Below, in pieces: positions 2,851 to 9,151 of a DNA stretch of 64,000 bases (positions are counted from its first letter, which is position 1; every line of letters begins with the position of its first letter). Below the pieces are notes generated by a model. It did no database searches. It was given only the letters and a program-made list of their open reading frames with translations, and was not told the origin of the DNA. Origin of the DNA: Halomarina oriensis (GTDB lineage Archaea; Halobacteriota; Halobacteria; Halobacteriales; Haloarculaceae); assembly GCF_009791395.1 (NCBI RefSeq), contig NZ_WSZK01000007.1:62001-126000 (forward strand). Direction: 5' to 3'. The position numbers and the translations under genes are program-made.

Positions 2851-3234
2851 TCATGCATTACAGAACTGTTCGAGGGAGGGTTCGGTCGCTTCGTCGTCCG
2901 AGAGCACAGTCGTGAGACCCCGTACTGCTCTTCGAGTGCCGTATACTCTGATTCTGCTCGGGAGAGCGGTGAGGAGTTCCTCTGTGACGTCGGACTCTCC
3001 GCGGAGTGACCGATATATCGCACCGACTACGGGGCCCGGATCGGACCACGCTGCAGTCTCGATGAGTACCTCTCGCGTGACGCCGACGCTCTCGGTCAGG
3101 ACGAGCGAGCGGAGGAGGGACCGCACGTATCGCTGCCACTGCCAGCAGTGGCGTGACGGAGACGCGTGCCGGAACGAGTACGTCGTTCCGGTCGGGTCAG
3201 AACTCGACGAGTAGCCCAAGACACAAGCTGACAC
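2851..3234 (-). CDS. Hypothetical protein or gene remnant
   Basis: A 127-codon frame with a GTG start. The first ~30 residues look random, but from about residue 33 (RYVRSLLRSLVLTESV onward) it has helical, acidic, protein-like composition and ends SLEQFCNA. I do not recognise a family. It lies directly left of the origin repeats. It could be a real small haloarchaeal protein or the decayed end of a longer gene. Confidence 0.3.
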   Translation of the reverse strand: MSACVLGYSSSSDPTGTTYSFRHASPSRHCWQWQRYVRSLLRSLVLTESVGVTREVLIETAAWSDPGPVVGAIYRSLRGESDVTEELLTALPSRIRVYGTRRAVRGLTTVLSDDEATEPSLEQFCNA

Positions 3235-3266
3235 GAGAGGGGTAGCCGAGGGGGAAGGAGGGGGGG

Positions 3267-3285
3267 ACCCCCCTCGCGGATGTAA
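3267..3285 (-). repeat. Origin recognition box-like repeat 1
   Basis: Reverse-orientation copy, ACCCCCCTCGCGGATGTAA on the plus strand. It is preceded by a further G6 run, so that the C-run forms a small hairpin with it. This is the outermost left copy and is a perfect match to repeats 3 and 4. Confidence 0.85.
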
Positions 3286-3384
3286 CGGCGATCAAAGGGT
3301 GGGGGTGAGTCGACGAGTCGCGGTCTCCGGATCCGGCCTCTCGAACCGTGGTGACTGTCCTAGTCGTCTCAGTCGTCGGAGTCG

Positions 3385-3480
3385 TGGGCGGTGGGGTCTG
3401 TTGGTACTGTGTGGTGTGTTGGTGTTGTGTTGTTGTGTTGTTGTGTTGTGCTAGGTACTAGCTAGTACTAGTACTAGAAC
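3385..3480. other. Putative DNA-unwinding element: GT tract plus CTAG cluster
   Basis: From about 3400 to 3450 the plus strand is almost only G and T (repeats of TTGTG), giving strong strand asymmetry. It is followed by five CTAG tetramers at 3451, 3458, 3462, 3468 and 3474. The tract is bounded by repeats 1 and 2. In known haloarchaeal origins an easily melted segment sits between Orc boxes, so this is the best candidate for initial unwinding. Confidence 0.65.
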
Positions 3481-3488
3481 GCGCGAAC

Positions 3489-3509
3489 ACCCCTCCCTCG
3501 CGGATGTAA
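3489..3509 (-). repeat. Origin recognition box-like repeat 2
   Basis: Reverse-orientation copy on the right side of the CTAG cluster. The CTCGCGGATGTAA core is intact but the C-run is interrupted by a T (CCCCTCCCTCG), making it the weakest of the five main copies. Confidence 0.75.
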
Positions 3510-3579
3510 ATCCGCAGCTTTCGACGGTTTCAGAGGTTGGCCGACTCCCTCCAACGTTGCTAGACCCCCCTTCGGAGCG

Positions 3580-3598
3580 TTACATCCGCGAGGGGGGT
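3580..3598 (+). repeat. Origin recognition box-like repeat 3
   Basis: Perfect forward copy TTACATCCGCGAGGGGGGT, followed by a C-rich run. The G-run and C-run can pair as a short hairpin, as in repeats 1 and 5. Confidence 0.85.
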
Positions 3599-3654
3599 CC
3601 CCCTCCCCCGACCTCGGTTCGCCGTCGTGGCCGTCGAGAGGACGGCTGGGTCGA

Positions 3655-3673
3655 TTACATCCGCGAGGGGGGT
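3655..3673 (+). repeat. Origin recognition box-like repeat 4
   Basis: Perfect forward copy of the 19-base repeat, 75 bases to the right of repeat 3. Here the following C-run is absent (GTCCGAC). Confidence 0.85.
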
Positions 3674-3730
3674 GTCCGACAGACGCAAGCCAACCGCTCT
3701 GCGTCCATCGTGGCGCTACACTCGTCCGAC

Positions 3731-3749
3731 TTACAACCGCGAGGGGGGT
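3731..3749 (+). repeat. Origin recognition box-like repeat 5
   Basis: Forward copy with one change (TTACAACCGCGAGGGGGGT), 76 bases to the right of repeat 4 and again followed by CCCCCTCC. The near-constant 75-76 base spacing of repeats 3, 4 and 5 corresponds to about seven helical turns. Confidence 0.85.
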
Positions 3750-3914
3750 CCCCCTCCGCTGTCCACCGTCTGTTCATCCGCGAGTCGGTTGGAGTCGGGT
3801 TCGATACACTCTCTTCCGTCTCTGGGTGCTACTACGCTCTATCTCGTGGGTGTTACATCCGCGACGGAACTGGGACAGGTTTATGTGCAGTGGAACGTAT
3901 CACTGGTCAACGCG

Positions 3915-5141
3915 ATGGCCGACGACGACTCCGAGGGTCGTGACCCACTGTTTCGCTACGACGACCCCATCTTCGAGAAGCAGGAACTCCTCGAGATCAG
4001 CCACGTTCCCGGTCCCGACCGTATCGTCGGCCGCGAGACCGAGATGGGACAGGTTGCAGAAGCACTCAACCCCGCTATCTTCGGCAACCAACCGAGCAAC
4101 CTCTTCATCTTCGGGAAGACGGGAACCGGGAAGTCCCTCGTCTCGCGGAGCGTCACCGAGCGGGTCGTCGTCGAAGCAGAGCGCGAGGAGATCTCGGTCC
4201 GACACGTCTTCATCGACTGTGGTGAGCAGTCGACCGAGGTCTCTGTGGTGAAGACGATCGCACAGCAACTCAACGACGAACACGTCACCGGTCTCTCTGT
4301 ACCGGACAGAGGACTGGGGACCGGGGATTACTACAAACGGCTGTGGCAGGTCATCGATACGTTCGCCGACGTCCTCGTCGTCATCCTCGACGAGATCGAC
4401 ATGCTCGACGACGACGAGGTGCTCAGGAAGCTGTCACGAGCGGGCGAGAACCGGAGTCTGTCTTCGGCGAAGGTCAGCGTCATCGGCATCTCGAACAAGA
4501 TCGACTACCCCGAGAACCTCTCGGAGCGTGTGAAGTCGAGTCTCGCACAGACGGAACTCGTCTTCCAACCGTACGACGCCGAGCAGTTGAAACGAATCCT
4601 GGAGAAGCGCCGAGACGCGTTCCGGAAGGGTGTGCTCGGCGATAGCGTCATCCCGCTCACCGCTGCGCTGGCAGCGGGTGAGCACGGCGACGCACGGAAG
4701 GCTATCGACATCCTGCACAACGCAGGCCTCATCGCGAAGAAACAGAGCGACGAGATGGTTCGTGAAGACCACGTTCGCGCGGGCAAAGAGCAGGCTGAAG
4801 CCGACCGATTCAGCGAGTTGGTCGGTGGTGCTCCCACACAGGTCAAAGCCGTTCTCTACGCCCTGGTGTTGCTCACCGAGCAGAACGACGAAGCGAAGTT
4901 CAGCACGTCGAGAATCTACGACGTCTACAGCCAGGTCCGTGTCGAGTTGAATCTCGACGAACTGTCCGAGCGTCGGGTCCAGGAACTCCTGAAGGAGCAG
5001 AACTTCCTCAACGTGATTCGCTCGGACCGGACCAGCCGTGGCCGTGGCGGAGGCGTCTACGCGACACACCGACTCCTCGAGGATCCGGATATCGTCAAGC
5101 GGGTCTTGCTTCGTGACGACCGACTGGCTACTGAGCTGTGA
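3915..5141 (+). CDS. orc1/cdc6: Orc1/Cdc6 origin-binding initiator
   Basis: A 408-residue AAA+ protein. Walker A is GKTGTGKS (67-74), Walker B is VVILDEID (155-162, acidic pair D159/E160), and sensor 1 contains N194 in GISNKID. An AAA+ lid follows. The C-terminal winged helix (about 310-408) contains the Gly-rich wing RGRGGGVYATH. Length is usual for haloarchaeal Cdc6 proteins. I chose the ATG at 3915, which begins MADDDSEGRDPLFR. The frame is open upstream to 3627 but that part runs through the origin repeats. A TATA-like TTTATG lies about 35 bases upstream. The protein should bind the adjacent repeats and load the MCM helicase. The closest repeats overlap its promoter region, so self-repression is plausible. 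Confidence 0.95.
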   Translation: MADDDSEGRDPLFRYDDPIFEKQELLEISHVPGPDRIVGRETEMGQVAEALNPAIFGNQPSNLFIFGKTGTGKSLVSRSVTERVVVEAEREEISVRHVFIDCGEQSTEVSVVKTIAQQLNDEHVTGLSVPDRGLGTGDYYKRLWQVIDTFADVLVVILDEIDMLDDDEVLRKLSRAGENRSLSSAKVSVIGISNKIDYPENLSERVKSSLAQTELVFQPYDAEQLKRILEKRRDAFRKGVLGDSVIPLTAALAAGEHGDARKAIDILHNAGLIAKKQSDEMVREDHVRAGKEQAEADRFSELVGGAPTQVKAVLYALVLLTEQNDEAKFSTSRIYDVYSQVRVELNLDELSERRVQELLKEQNFLNVIRSDRTSRGRGGGVYATHRLLEDPDIVKRVLLRDDRLATEL

Positions 5142-5335: not shown

Positions 5336-5788
5336 ATGGTCGATCTGGACGGTACTTCGGTGGAGACACTCAGGAAGAAGTTGCGGGAGACCGACGAGAA
5401 GACTCCTGCTCTCCGACTCGTGGTCGCGCTGAACTACAAATACGGCCTCTCTCAGACGGAGATCGCAGACCAGTACGGTATCGCTCGTAAGACCGTCTAC
5501 AACTGGCTCGTCCGGTTCCAGTCACGACCTATCGAGGAGGCGCTCCACGACCGTGATCGCTCGGGTCGTCCATCGAAACTCACCGGCGAACAGCGGCGAC
5601 TCTTCTACGCACAGCTCCGACGATCACCGAAAGCGGTCGGATACGACGCCGACGCCTGGAACCCGTCACTGGCACGACGGCTGGTTCGGGACGTGTTCGA
5701 CGTCGACTACTCGATTCCCCACCTGAGACGCCTCCTGCGTGAGGCCGGACTCGTCCCCGGTGAGGACGGATGGGTCGGTCCGGAGTGA
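5336..5788 (+). CDS. Stand-alone IS630-type helix-turn-helix protein
   Basis: A 150-residue protein with two DNA-binding parts. The first is a helix-turn-helix (GLSQTEIADQYGIARKTVYN, about 40-60). The second is a winged helix of the kind found at the front of IS630/Tc1 transposases (LTGEQRR to LRRLLREAGL, about 78-140). The DDE catalytic domain that follows in transposases is absent and the protein ends cleanly at GWVGPE. No inverted repeats flank it. It follows orc1 in the same direction after 194 bases, with its own AT-rich promoter (AAAACTATTTAC near 5302). It is either a domesticated DNA-binding protein of the origin region or the remaining front half of a transposase. The intact ends favour the first. 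Confidence 0.75.
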   Translation: MVDLDGTSVETLRKKLRETDEKTPALRLVVALNYKYGLSQTEIADQYGIARKTVYNWLVRFQSRPIEEALHDRDRSGRPSKLTGEQRRLFYAQLRRSPKAVGYDADAWNPSLARRLVRDVFDVDYSIPHLRRLLREAGLVPGEDGWVGPE

Positions 5789-5989
5789 CCGACCACTCCG
5801 GCGAGTTCGTATCGACGAGTCCGAGCTACCGACAGAAAAACGTGTAACTACTTCTAACTCTAAACTCCGACGTCAGGGACCTCCGTGGCGTGTTGCGAAC
5901 GAGATTATCTCACCGACTCGGTTGTCGCCCCCCGCAGGACGAGCGGAACCAAACGACTGATAGTCGTCTGGTCGTATTACCGAGCACGA

Positions 5990-6625
5990 ATGACCGACTC
6001 CGAAGGAAGCGCCGAACCCGACGACGCTCGACCCTCGAGTAAGGTCGCCCGACTCATCGAGGAGTACGGTCTCGACGAGTCGTTCGGAGCGTATCTCGAA
6101 GCACAGTGGACGAGCGACGAGGACCGGATGAGCCTTCGGAGTTTGGCCGACACGTTCAACCGCCGCCTGCTCGAAGTTGCGATGAACGAGGCGGGACGGT
6201 CGGTGGTCGACGGTGAAGTCGAGAACCTCTACCGACTGCTGACAGACGGCGACGTGAGCAGTGGGGTCCGAACGGAGGCACAGGCTCGACTCGAACGAGC
6301 AGGCGTCGACGTCGACGAACTCCAGCGTGACTTCGTAACCTACCAGGCGATCCGGTCGTATCTGACGAAGTACCGCGAGGCGACGTACGAGTCGACCCCG
6401 ACCGACCGCGTACAGAAGGTCCGAGGGACCATCGAGCGTCTCCAGTCGAGAACACAGTCGGTCACGACCCAGAGCCTCCAACAGCTCCGTGACACCGACC
6501 GAATCACGCTCGGGACCTTCCGAATCTTCGTCGACGTCGACGTCCTCTGCGAGGAGTGCGGTGCACAGTACGGCGTCGTCGAACTACTCGGCCGAGGTGG
6601 CTGTGACTGTGAGCCCGAACGGTAG
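5990..6625 (+). CDS. RdfA-family protein (rod-determining factor type)
   Basis: A 211-residue protein matching my recall of the haloarchaeal RdfA family. It has an N-terminal KVARLIEEYGLD, the core EDRMSLRSLADTFNRRLLE, then DGEVENLYRLLTDGDVSSGV and DFVTYQAIRSYLTKYR. The C-terminal zinc-binding site uses C187/C190 and C205/C207 (CEEC, CDC). RdfA was named in Haloferax volcanii for a role in rod-cell formation. Many paralogues are encoded next to archaea-specific SMC-like genes, as here. The ATG at 5990 was chosen because the preceding frame lacks family sequence. It is convergent with the SMC-like gene, with 65 bases between stops. Confidence 0.85.
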   Translation: MTDSEGSAEPDDARPSSKVARLIEEYGLDESFGAYLEAQWTSDEDRMSLRSLADTFNRRLLEVAMNEAGRSVVDGEVENLYRLLTDGDVSSGVRTEAQARLERAGVDVDELQRDFVTYQAIRSYLTKYREATYESTPTDRVQKVRGTIERLQSRTQSVTTQSLQQLRDTDRITLGTFRIFVDVDVLCEECGAQYGVVELLGRGGCDCEPER

Positions 6626-6690
6626 ACACACCGCTGTCGTCTCACGTGACTCCAGTGCAGTACGGTGGGAAAGAGAGCGCGGTCGGTACG

Positions 6691-8634
6691 CTAGATTTCG
6701 GTAATCCGGGTGTAGGAGTCGTCGAGTACCCGTGCGTCCTCGGGTAGCAGCGCGACGACGAGATACGACGCGTACTCCGCGATGTACTCCACGAGATCGG
6801 CGATCCGTTCGGAGTCGATCGCTTCCAGTGAATCGAGGAGCACGAACGGCACCGTCTCGTGTACGTCGTGCACGAGGTATCCCGCCAGGCCGAAGACGAG
6901 TCCGGTCACCTCCCGTTCGCTCTCGGAGAGGTGGTCGATGGTGTCTTCGTACGTCGCCCCGGACGCAGTCGAGCGAACGACGTGGAGTTCGAACACCGTC
7001 CGGTCGACCTTCTGTCGCCCCTCACGGACCCGTTTCTGGACGCGTTCGATCCAGATGCGTTCGAGGTTCTCGTAGCCCAGTATCTCGAGCACGGCGTCCA
7101 TGTGGTCGTTGAACTGCTCCACCGCCTGCTCCTCGATTCGGTCGATTCGCGTCCGGAGGTCCTGCAGTTCTTCGGTGACCGATTCACGCTCCGCTCGAAG
7201 TCGTTCCTCTTCGGTCAACGACTCCTCGATAGCGGCTATCCGGTCGGTTACGTCCTCGGCCTCCGATTCGAGCCGACCGAGCTCGAACTCCAGTTCGTTG
7301 GCCTCCTTGTGGAGTTCGAGGATCTCGTCGAAGTCGTCGGATTCGAGTTCCTCGACCGCCGTTTCGAGGGATTCGATCTCGCCACCGAGTCGGTCGCGCT
7401 TCTCACGGAGGGTCTCGATCTCCTCACGACGTCGGTCCAGTTCGTCGGTGACCTCCTCGTGCTTCTGTGTGAGGCGTTCTTGCTGGCGGCGATGTTGCTC
7501 TCGCTCGCGTTTGGTCTCCTGAAGCTCGTTCAACTCGTCTTCTATCTCGCGCACGTCCGAGAGGGTGTCAGTTCGGACGGACCGCAGTTTCTCGAGCGTG
7601 TCCTCGATTCGCTCCTCTTCGACTTCCGTCCCGCACGTCCAGCAGACGACCGACTCGTCCTCGACGAGCTGGTCGGTCACCGCCCCGTCGGTACGGCTAT
7701 CCTGCAACACCTTGCTCATCTCTGATTCCGTCTCGTCGAGCATCTCCTCGTTGAAACTGATGACGTCCTGGAGGTCGCTCACTCGCTCTTCGAGGCGGCT
7801 CTTCTGGCTTCGGAGCCGCGAGATCTTCCGCTGTAGGTCCTCTTCGTCCGCGGAGAGTTCGGGAAGAGCTTTTCGTTCGGCTTCGAGTTCGTGGCGCTCG
7901 GAGGTGAGCGACTCGATGCTCTTCTCCTGGAGGTCGATCTCCGAGCGGATCCTGTCGAGTTCTGACCGCTGGTCTCGGAGCGCTTCGAGACGGTCTTCGA
8001 GTTCCTCCTGCTCGTCCCGACTCGCCTCGATACTGCCGTCGTACGCTTCTATCTCCGCCTCTTTCGCTTCGAGGTCCGACCGCTTCTCTTCGATATCCGA
8101 CTGGAGCGACGTCCGGCGCTCTTCGAGGGTCGGGAGGTCCCCTTTCAGCGACTCTAGCTCCTCCAGCTCGTCGTCGATCCGGTCCCGCTCGGCTTCGTGC
8201 TCGCTGATCGCCGCTCGAATCGCGTCGACGTCGACGGGCCGCATGATCAACTCGCGGAGGTCTCGTCCCTGGGCGACTGCACGGCGGGCTTCGTTCGACT
8301 CCAGCAGGAACGCGAAGAGGTCGGCAACCACCGGGTCCTCGGCGTATGGCTCCCCGTCGGTCACGACGGTTCCGTCCGAACGTGTCAGCGTCCTCGTGTA
8401 GGTATTCTCGCCGATTTCGAGTTCGACGGTTCCGGTCTCGGCGTCGCCCTTGACCGAAGCGTTGTCGCTCCCCATCGCGGCCATGATCGCCTGCAGGAGC
8501 GACGTTCGGTTCGTCGCGTTGCGGCCCGTCAGAACCGTCACACCGGGGGGTATGTCGACGGCCGTGTCGTCGATTCCGCCGATGTTCTGTACCGCGACCG
8601 AAGCGGATTCCTTCGGCGTCGTAATGGCGTCCAT
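6691..8634 (-). CDS. Archaea-specific SMC-related protein with zinc hook
   Basis: A 647-residue protein. An N-terminal ATPase half is followed by about 400 residues of Glu/Arg-rich coiled coil (roughly 125-540) and a C-terminal ATPase half. At the middle of the coil, C331-W-T-C334 is a Rad50-type zinc-hook motif, so two molecules could join through one zinc. The signature motif is LSESER (569-574). The nucleotide site is unusual: the Walker A position reads GRNATNRTS (37-45) with Arg43 where Lys is expected, and the Walker B region is FVLLDSLEAID (597-607), with no Glu after D601. I recall this variant as typical of the family. Likely a DNA-bridging or segregation factor partnered with RdfA. 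The ATG at 8634 precedes the first beta strand. Confidence 0.85.
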   Translation of the reverse strand: MDAITTPKESASVAVQNIGGIDDTAVDIPPGVTVLTGRNATNRTSLLQAIMAAMGSDNASVKGDAETGTVELEIGENTYTRTLTRSDGTVVTDGEPYAEDPVVADLFAFLLESNEARRAVAQGRDLRELIMRPVDVDAIRAAISEHEAERDRIDDELEELESLKGDLPTLEERRTSLQSDIEEKRSDLEAKEAEIEAYDGSIEASRDEQEELEDRLEALRDQRSELDRIRSEIDLQEKSIESLTSERHELEAERKALPELSADEEDLQRKISRLRSQKSRLEERVSDLQDVISFNEEMLDETESEMSKVLQDSRTDGAVTDQLVEDESVVCWTCGTEVEEERIEDTLEKLRSVRTDTLSDVREIEDELNELQETKREREQHRRQQERLTQKHEEVTDELDRRREEIETLREKRDRLGGEIESLETAVEELESDDFDEILELHKEANELEFELGRLESEAEDVTDRIAAIEESLTEEERLRAERESVTEELQDLRTRIDRIEEQAVEQFNDHMDAVLEILGYENLERIWIERVQKRVREGRQKVDRTVFELHVVRSTASGATYEDTIDHLSESEREVTGLVFGLAGYLVHDVHETVPFVLLDSLEAIDSERIADLVEYIAEYASYLVVALLPEDARVLDDSYTRITEI

Positions 8635-9151
8635 ACCTATCGAACACGTGTGAGCGGTAAAAATATACCTCTTTGGGCGAGAACCGACGGGTTTTCTCGG
8701 CAACTCCGGCAAAAACGCCGTCCTCACGGTGTCACGGCGAAACTGTGGACGTCCGTGGAGTGAGGCGGACGACGACTCCGGAGGATGACCTGCTGCCCAC
8801 GTCGAGGAGTTCCGGTGGCCGACACCGGTGTCGAACACTCCGAACGCCGAGACGTCGTGCAGTCCGACCCGTCGGGACCGAGAGGTGCTCGTGTCATCGT
8901 CGACGGGAAGAACCCACTCGTGGCGGGTTCCGACCCGAAGCCGCTCACCCAGGGGTCGCTCGAAACAGCCCATCGGACCCGCCGTCGTACTCCGCTCCCA
9001 GGCCGTGACCCATCTCGACGAGGGCTACACTCGTCTCGCCGGCATCCGACGACGCTACGAGACCGTCTCGACCCGACCGCGTCGGCCGTCCCCTCGGTGT
9101 CGCTCGTCTTTCGAGCCGGATACGACGCCCGCTATAACAGGCGTATGTCTG
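8635..9151. other. Gene-free stretch upstream of the SMC-like gene
   Basis: This contains the promoter of the SMC-like gene (AT-rich GGTAAAAATATACC near 8656-8669, a likely TATA on the minus strand). Beyond that I find no convincing frame; the open frames here have no family resemblance and random-looking composition. It is possibly decayed sequence. Confidence 0.5.

Follow-up and report, generated by a model that had tools for sequence, protein, structure and literature searches.

Predicted Replication Origin

The window analyzed here is a 64,000-nt stretch of Halomarina oriensis DNA (GCF_009791395.1, contig NZ_WSZK01000007.1, positions 62,001–126,000, forward strand), and positions below are counted within it unless another contig is named. 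The DNA upstream of a gene for a 408-aa Orc1/Cdc6 replication initiator (3200–3914) holds ORB-like boxes and an array of CTAG sites, summarized in Table 1. Inverted ORB repeats with a G-string stand adjacent to orc1/cdc6, and a labile putative unwinding element lies between boxes, both of which are expected of an orc/cdc6-adjacent haloarchaeal origin. This 80-bp element ranks among the most labile 0.13% of the 64-kb window, as calculated from nearest-neighbor energies. Six ORB-like boxes around the least stable segment, followed by the orc1/cdc6 gene, make the prediction of an origin here convincing. It resembles the origins described by Wu et al. (2012; PMC3528665) in its inverted G-string ORB-like boxes, its AT-richer core and its place directly upstream of orc1/cdc6; unlike in the account given here, CTAG has no occurrence in the main text of that paper.

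Table 1. Features of the predicted origin (window positions).
Feature	Position	Strand	Remarks
ORB-like box	3268–3285	-	exact copy of TTACATCCGCGAGGGGGG
Single CTAG	3360–3363	.	upstream of the array
G+T tract	3391–3450	+	95% G+T (+ strand); abuts the 5′ side of the array; between two minus-strand boxes
Putative unwinding element	3401–3480	.	least stable 80 bp of the origin, predicted from nearest-neighbor energies
Array of five CTAGs	3451–3477	.	starts 3451, 3458, 3462, 3468, 3474; includes the 14-bp palindrome GTACTAGCTAGTAC
ORB-like box	3492–3509	-	one mismatch to TTACATCCGCGAGGGGGG
Single CTAG	3560–3563	.	between the inverted ORB-like boxes 3492–3509 and 3580–3597
ORB-like box	3580–3597	+	exact
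ORB-like box	3655–3672	+	exact
ORB-like box	3731–3748	+	one mismatch
Weak ORB-like box	3853–3870	+	full G-string absent, four mismatches
orc1/cdc6 replication initiator gene	3915–5141	+	408 aa; TIGR02928, E = 4e-120

Genes for rod-determining factor A (rdfA; PF21811, E = 7e-77) and, on the other strand from it, an archaea-specific SMC-related protein (NF045487, E = 6e-206) occupy 5975–8640; these neighbors make a link of the origin to chromosome organization or cell shape possible. Between the orc gene and rdfA lies an IS630-like transposase fragment (5336–5785) that scores under the NCBIfam cut-off. On the far side of the origin, a short-chain dehydrogenase-like reading frame (1740–2330) appears in pieces on reading the sequence and is probably a pseudogene.

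CTAG Array within the Origin

A sequence-only reading of this DNA had drawn attention to five CTAGs in 27 bases, inside the putative unwinding element and between Orc boxes, and this description proved correct. All five starts were located, the array falls within the segment computed to be the least stable of the origin, and minus-strand boxes flank it on either side, with the plus-strand boxes following from 3580 on. The same reading had called CTAG under-represented, as it is reported to be in all genomes by Fullmer et al. (2019; PMC6471742), who leave its role open. The window bears this out with 15 CTAGs vs. 84.1 (sd 8.6) in dinucleotide shuffles; CTAG is thus rare, not frequent enough to make such a cluster expected.

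Seven of the 15 CTAGs lie within 204 bp (3360–3563). Five CTAGs in 27 bp did not occur in any of 5000 dinucleotide shuffles of 3381–3500, nor in any of 5000 shuffles of 3201–3914. A search of the whole genome (4.07 Mb, 50 contigs) for CTAG triples, defined as CTAG-N0-6-CTAG-N0-6-CTAG, gave this array and just one other place (G000:C7:749778-749810). That place, too, precedes an orc1/cdc6 gene, a second one, at a distance of 1.03 kb. GATC sites show no clustering at the origin, with at most two in 60 bp.

CTAG Clusters at Other Haloarchaeal Origins

In H. oriensis and 39 relatives taken together, CTAG triples occur in 30 places. Twenty-one of these precede an orc gene, at 15–1325 bp from its 5′ end, vs. 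0.08 expected from 220 orc genes in 130.8 Mb with a limit of 1.5 kb upstream. A second set of 108 distinct origins from 71 genomes was picked by Orc match, regardless of CTAG content. Here CTAG density reached 2.4–4.7 per kb from -1000 to -200 and was mostly 0.1–0.7 per kb elsewhere. Disregarding words with N, CTAG ranked highest of 136 tetramers in upstream vs. gene-plus-downstream DNA (log2 2.61), followed by TTAA (1.72) and TATA (1.52). When each of the 26 scored clusters (at least three CTAGs in 60 bp) was ranked for duplex lability against its own upstream region, the median rank was the 95th percentile.

One explanation would give the array no function, attributing it to relaxed avoidance of CTAG in AT-rich intergenic DNA together with slippage of a CTAGTA hexamer. 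The H. oriensis array does contain 2.7 copies of CTAGTA and adjoins low-complexity G/T repeats, and AT-rich DNA in general shows a milder depletion of CTAG. However, CTAG density at origins vs. distant DNA was 6.2 vs. 1.39 per kb below 50% GC, 3.23 vs. 0.63 per kb at 50–58% GC, and 1.30 vs. 0.25 per kb above 58% GC. Because origins thus exceed distant DNA of equal GC class by a factor of 4.5–5.2, base composition does not explain the enrichment. The spacers in arrays of other origins are also unrelated to one another, and with the linkage of most triple places to orc genes this leaves the explanation improbable.

On conservation at related origins, which the sequence-only reading had made a condition for its idea, the evidence is mixed. 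Clusters recur strongly across orc-linked haloarchaeal origins generally, and the picture is patchier for the closest Orc type (eight origins, 62–69% Orc identity), in which only G029 and G116 have at least three CTAGs in 60 bp; CTAG is absent from G118, and the others have 1–3. A search of genome contigs for related loci returned one distant relative only.

CTAG Methylase and Origin Clusters

The presence of a CTAG methylase, which the sequence-only reading had presumed, is supported by a homologue elsewhere in the genome (G000:C17:891-1985, 365 aa, PF01555), its specificity being assigned by homology only. It is 50.8% identical over 316 aa to a methylase of Methanothermobacter plasmid pFZ1, which adjoins an MjaI-family endonuclease. 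We take pFZ1 to be the plasmid that encodes M.MthZI. The latter, from M. thermautotrophicus, is an experimentally characterized m4C CTAG methylase (Ouellette et al., 2018; PMC5867850). From their translations, the ORFs beside the H. oriensis gene encode a transcription factor B homologue and a 3-dehydroquinate dehydratase. As with Dam, the likely writer of CTAG marks is a methylase outside any known restriction pair.

Methylase matches at E 1e-20 were found in 333 of the 391 genomes of the class; genomes with no such match are termed methylase-negative (20 listed, 38 deduced by their absence from the matches). CTAG triples occur somewhere in 201 of the 391 genomes, which by subtraction gives 185 of 333 methylase-positive and 16 of 58 methylase-negative genomes. 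One set of 40 genomes that entered these comparisons includes 23 methylase-negative genomes, and since 15 of them were picked for having CTAG triples, selection works against the methylase difference reported here.

For a comparison at one origin per genome, we took the main chromosomal origin, that of the long Orc type (hereafter the main origin), in 181 genomes, 16 of which have weak or unknown methylase status. Clusters are present at 50 of 124 main origins in methylase-positive genomes vs. 0 of 41 in negative ones (Fisher p = 3e-8, ignoring relatedness); with the region taken up to the aligned protein start, the counts are 49 of 124 vs. 0 of 41 (p = 6e-8, again ignoring relatedness). Families differ widely in the share of methylase-positive genomes with clusters, from 26 of 27 (f1), 12–13 of 16 (f7), and 4 of 6 (f5) to 3 of 42 (f4), 1 of 10 (f12), and 0 of 7 (f17). 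Three f7 genomes (G056, G088, G090) are methylase-positive and have no CTAG at all at the main origin. The survey excludes four genomes whose upstream region was shorter than 600 bp. Seven others stand outside it with contigs that start near the gene (G125, G382, G340, G060, G130, G210, and G010 [L060]), and G336 had no match in the main-origin search. Weak methylase matches were left outside the positive and negative sets.

Contrasts within Genera

Genus g35 offers a contrast between close relatives. The methylase-negative G365, a genome only 90% complete, has no CTAG at its main origin, vs. 6, 11, and 10 in the methylase-positive G041, G255, and G337; the zero count holds when the region is extended to the aligned protein start. 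When G365 is aligned with its congeners, ORB-like and AT-rich blocks are common to all and CTAG positions are changed, although the regions end unevenly and some of the array region is unmatched in G365.

Genera g20 (7 methylase-positive, 26 negative) and g46 (4 positive, 4 negative, with four genomes of weaker methylase matches kept apart) show no difference in clusters by methylase status, all being low. The correlation is therefore largely one between clades, and it rests mainly on clade f4 and the one within-genus contrast. Reacquisition of the methylase after the clusters had disappeared could account for g20, though this is conjecture.

We also considered whether GATC substitutes for CTAG in methylase-negative lineages. 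Main origins averaged 8.5 GATCs in methylase-negative and 5.9 in methylase-positive genomes, and the values are close within g20 and within g46; the difference tracks clade composition, and compensation was rejected as an explanation.

Plasmid-Type Origins

Origins of a family with a 449-aa Orc (L185–L196) carry a CTAG array beside a purine tract and repeated GAACAAATCGATAGGGGTG boxes. Its occurrence on small contigs and as identical copies in three genera suggests that the family is plasmid-type. These loci were mostly chosen for having arrays; they include eight methylase-negative genomes with 4–5 CTAGs in six distinct sequences, and four methylase-positive genomes with 3–5 CTAGs. Among the 16 triple-bearing negative genomes, 15 were examined, with part of their triple places covered, and in nine a triple precedes an orc gene (eight of the 449-aa type, plus G105). 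Being common to distant hosts, the family is a mobile haloarchaeal replicon.

Such arrays in hosts that lack the methylase bring in the main rival to a role in methylation, namely that the CTAGs form an origin element that works independently of it, as an easily melted or flexible core of the unwinding element or as a binding array for an origin protein, with methylation incidental. The location of the H. oriensis array in the least stable segment agrees with this, as does the spacing of neighboring CTAGs at main origins, for which exactly 10 bp is commonest, with 16 distinct spacers (e.g., L126, L128, L132, L136, L139, L065). However, an element selected for melting alone sits poorly with the enrichment of CTAG above the more meltable TTAA and TATA, and an element indifferent to methylation with the lack of clusters at every methylase-negative main origin surveyed. 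The plasmid-type family is itself ambiguous in this respect: three methylase-negative hosts of different genera share an identical origin sequence; the replicon thus passes from host to host, and methylase-positive ones may be what keeps its array intact. A 10.5-bp periodicity was not significant in a jitter test (p = 0.12–0.58) or a best-period test (p = 0.11–0.21), and we set helical phasing aside and claim only the count of 10-bp spacings. On balance we regard a methylation-independent element as possible while leaning against it.

Methylation and Known Systems

CTAG clusters at archaeal origins have been described before. In haloarchaea, Blow et al. (2016; PMC4752239) found them upstream of orc1/cdc6 genes and in correlation with an orphan methylase for CTAG (their body text has CATG where the legend has CTAG), and Ouellette et al. 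(2018; PMC5867850) discuss this; the belief of the sequence-only reading that the idea is undescribed for archaea is thus not supported. The H. oriensis origin is like the system in Figure 6D of Blow et al. in its motif, its place upstream of orc1/cdc6, the occurrence of several origins per genome, and a methylase homologue. Its cluster is non-coding, and the correlation of clusters with the methylase is found again at main origins, though not within g20 or g46. Unlike the pattern in that work, which is given as density over 500 bp, the cluster here is unusually tight and sits in the least stable segment beside a G/T tract and ORB-like boxes. The array is therefore a dense example of a published class. 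What the present survey adds is the exact place of the array within an origin, the contrast of G365 with its congeners, and counterexamples (g20, g46, and the plasmid-type family) for any methylation model. In the open-licence literature, we found little follow-up of the published correlation and no experiments on whether CTAG methylation affects origin firing.

Among the origins of H. volcanii, oriC2 alone is enriched in CTAG and GATC, the latter more strongly (Ouellette et al., 2018; PMC5867850). The two species are alike in raised CTAG density at an origin and a CTAG methylase in the genome; unlike at oriC2, GATC is not clustered in H. oriensis. The same paper describes an H. volcanii deletion strain without CTAG methylation that has no growth defect. 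This species also grows when its origins are absent.

The array also recalls the GATC/Dam/SeqA system at E. coli oriC (PMC6471742; PMC5867850), with palindromic 4-bp methylase targets crowded in an unwinding region. The two differ in that the modification would be m4C rather than m6A, the initiator is Orc1/Cdc6 rather than DnaA, and CTAG is rare where GATC is common. We know of no SeqA-like reader of hemimethylated CTAG.

Little is understood of how archaea prevent the premature re-firing of an origin, and an unwinding element marked by methylation would offer a direct and testable answer. There is good support for the position of the array, judged from sequence, and for its having been retained by selection. 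Whether it acts through methylation is more finely balanced: this is the leading reading, and we hold it with about equal belief and doubt. Specifically, we give roughly an even chance to the five CTAGs being a selected element of the orc1/cdc6-linked origin that works as m4C targets of the CTAG methylase. The array sits in the segment where the duplex is expected to open, and after replication its sites would be transiently hemimethylated. Their methylation state could alter duplex stability or be sensed by a reader protein, changing how easily the origin opens or is bound, and re-firing would be delayed. N4-methylcytosine lowers duplex stability, and methylation could thus act without a reader.

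The evidence on such control of initiation, which the sequence-only reading had proposed, is divided. The class-wide and g35 contrasts are in its favor, whereas g20, g46, the plasmid-type family, and the H. volcanii deletion strain speak against it. A bolder form, which we consider somewhat unlikely, is that the array is an independently evolved archaeal counterpart of the GATC/Dam switch, in which m4C in the unwinding element sets opening and the rarity of CTAG concentrates the signal at origins. If this were true, loss of the methylase would free CTAG sites to decay, as G365 suggests.

CTAG Triples Away from orc Genes

Nine of the 30 triple places have no orc gene. Seven of them were examined at the gene level; the other two are in G024, and one of these (L031) had no Orc match. 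In L199 (2996–3017) and L201 (4001–4022), the triple is 33 bp upstream of an ORF that is transposase-like by its translation, and these are CTAG-rich insertion-sequence ends unconnected with origins. Reading translations around the other five revealed no clear replication gene.

These two places, and the naming of CTAG as an insertion-sequence target by Fullmer et al. (2019; PMC6471742), raise the thought that the H. oriensis array could likewise be the end or target site of an insertion sequence. Yet it stands among ORB-like boxes, and in the region examined no transposase-like ORF comes closer than the IS630-like fragment, 1.9 kb off and beyond the orc gene; we consider such an origin of the array very improbable. 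On a short G022 contig with no orc gene within reach, seven CTAGs occupy 51 bp (L198 4001–4051).
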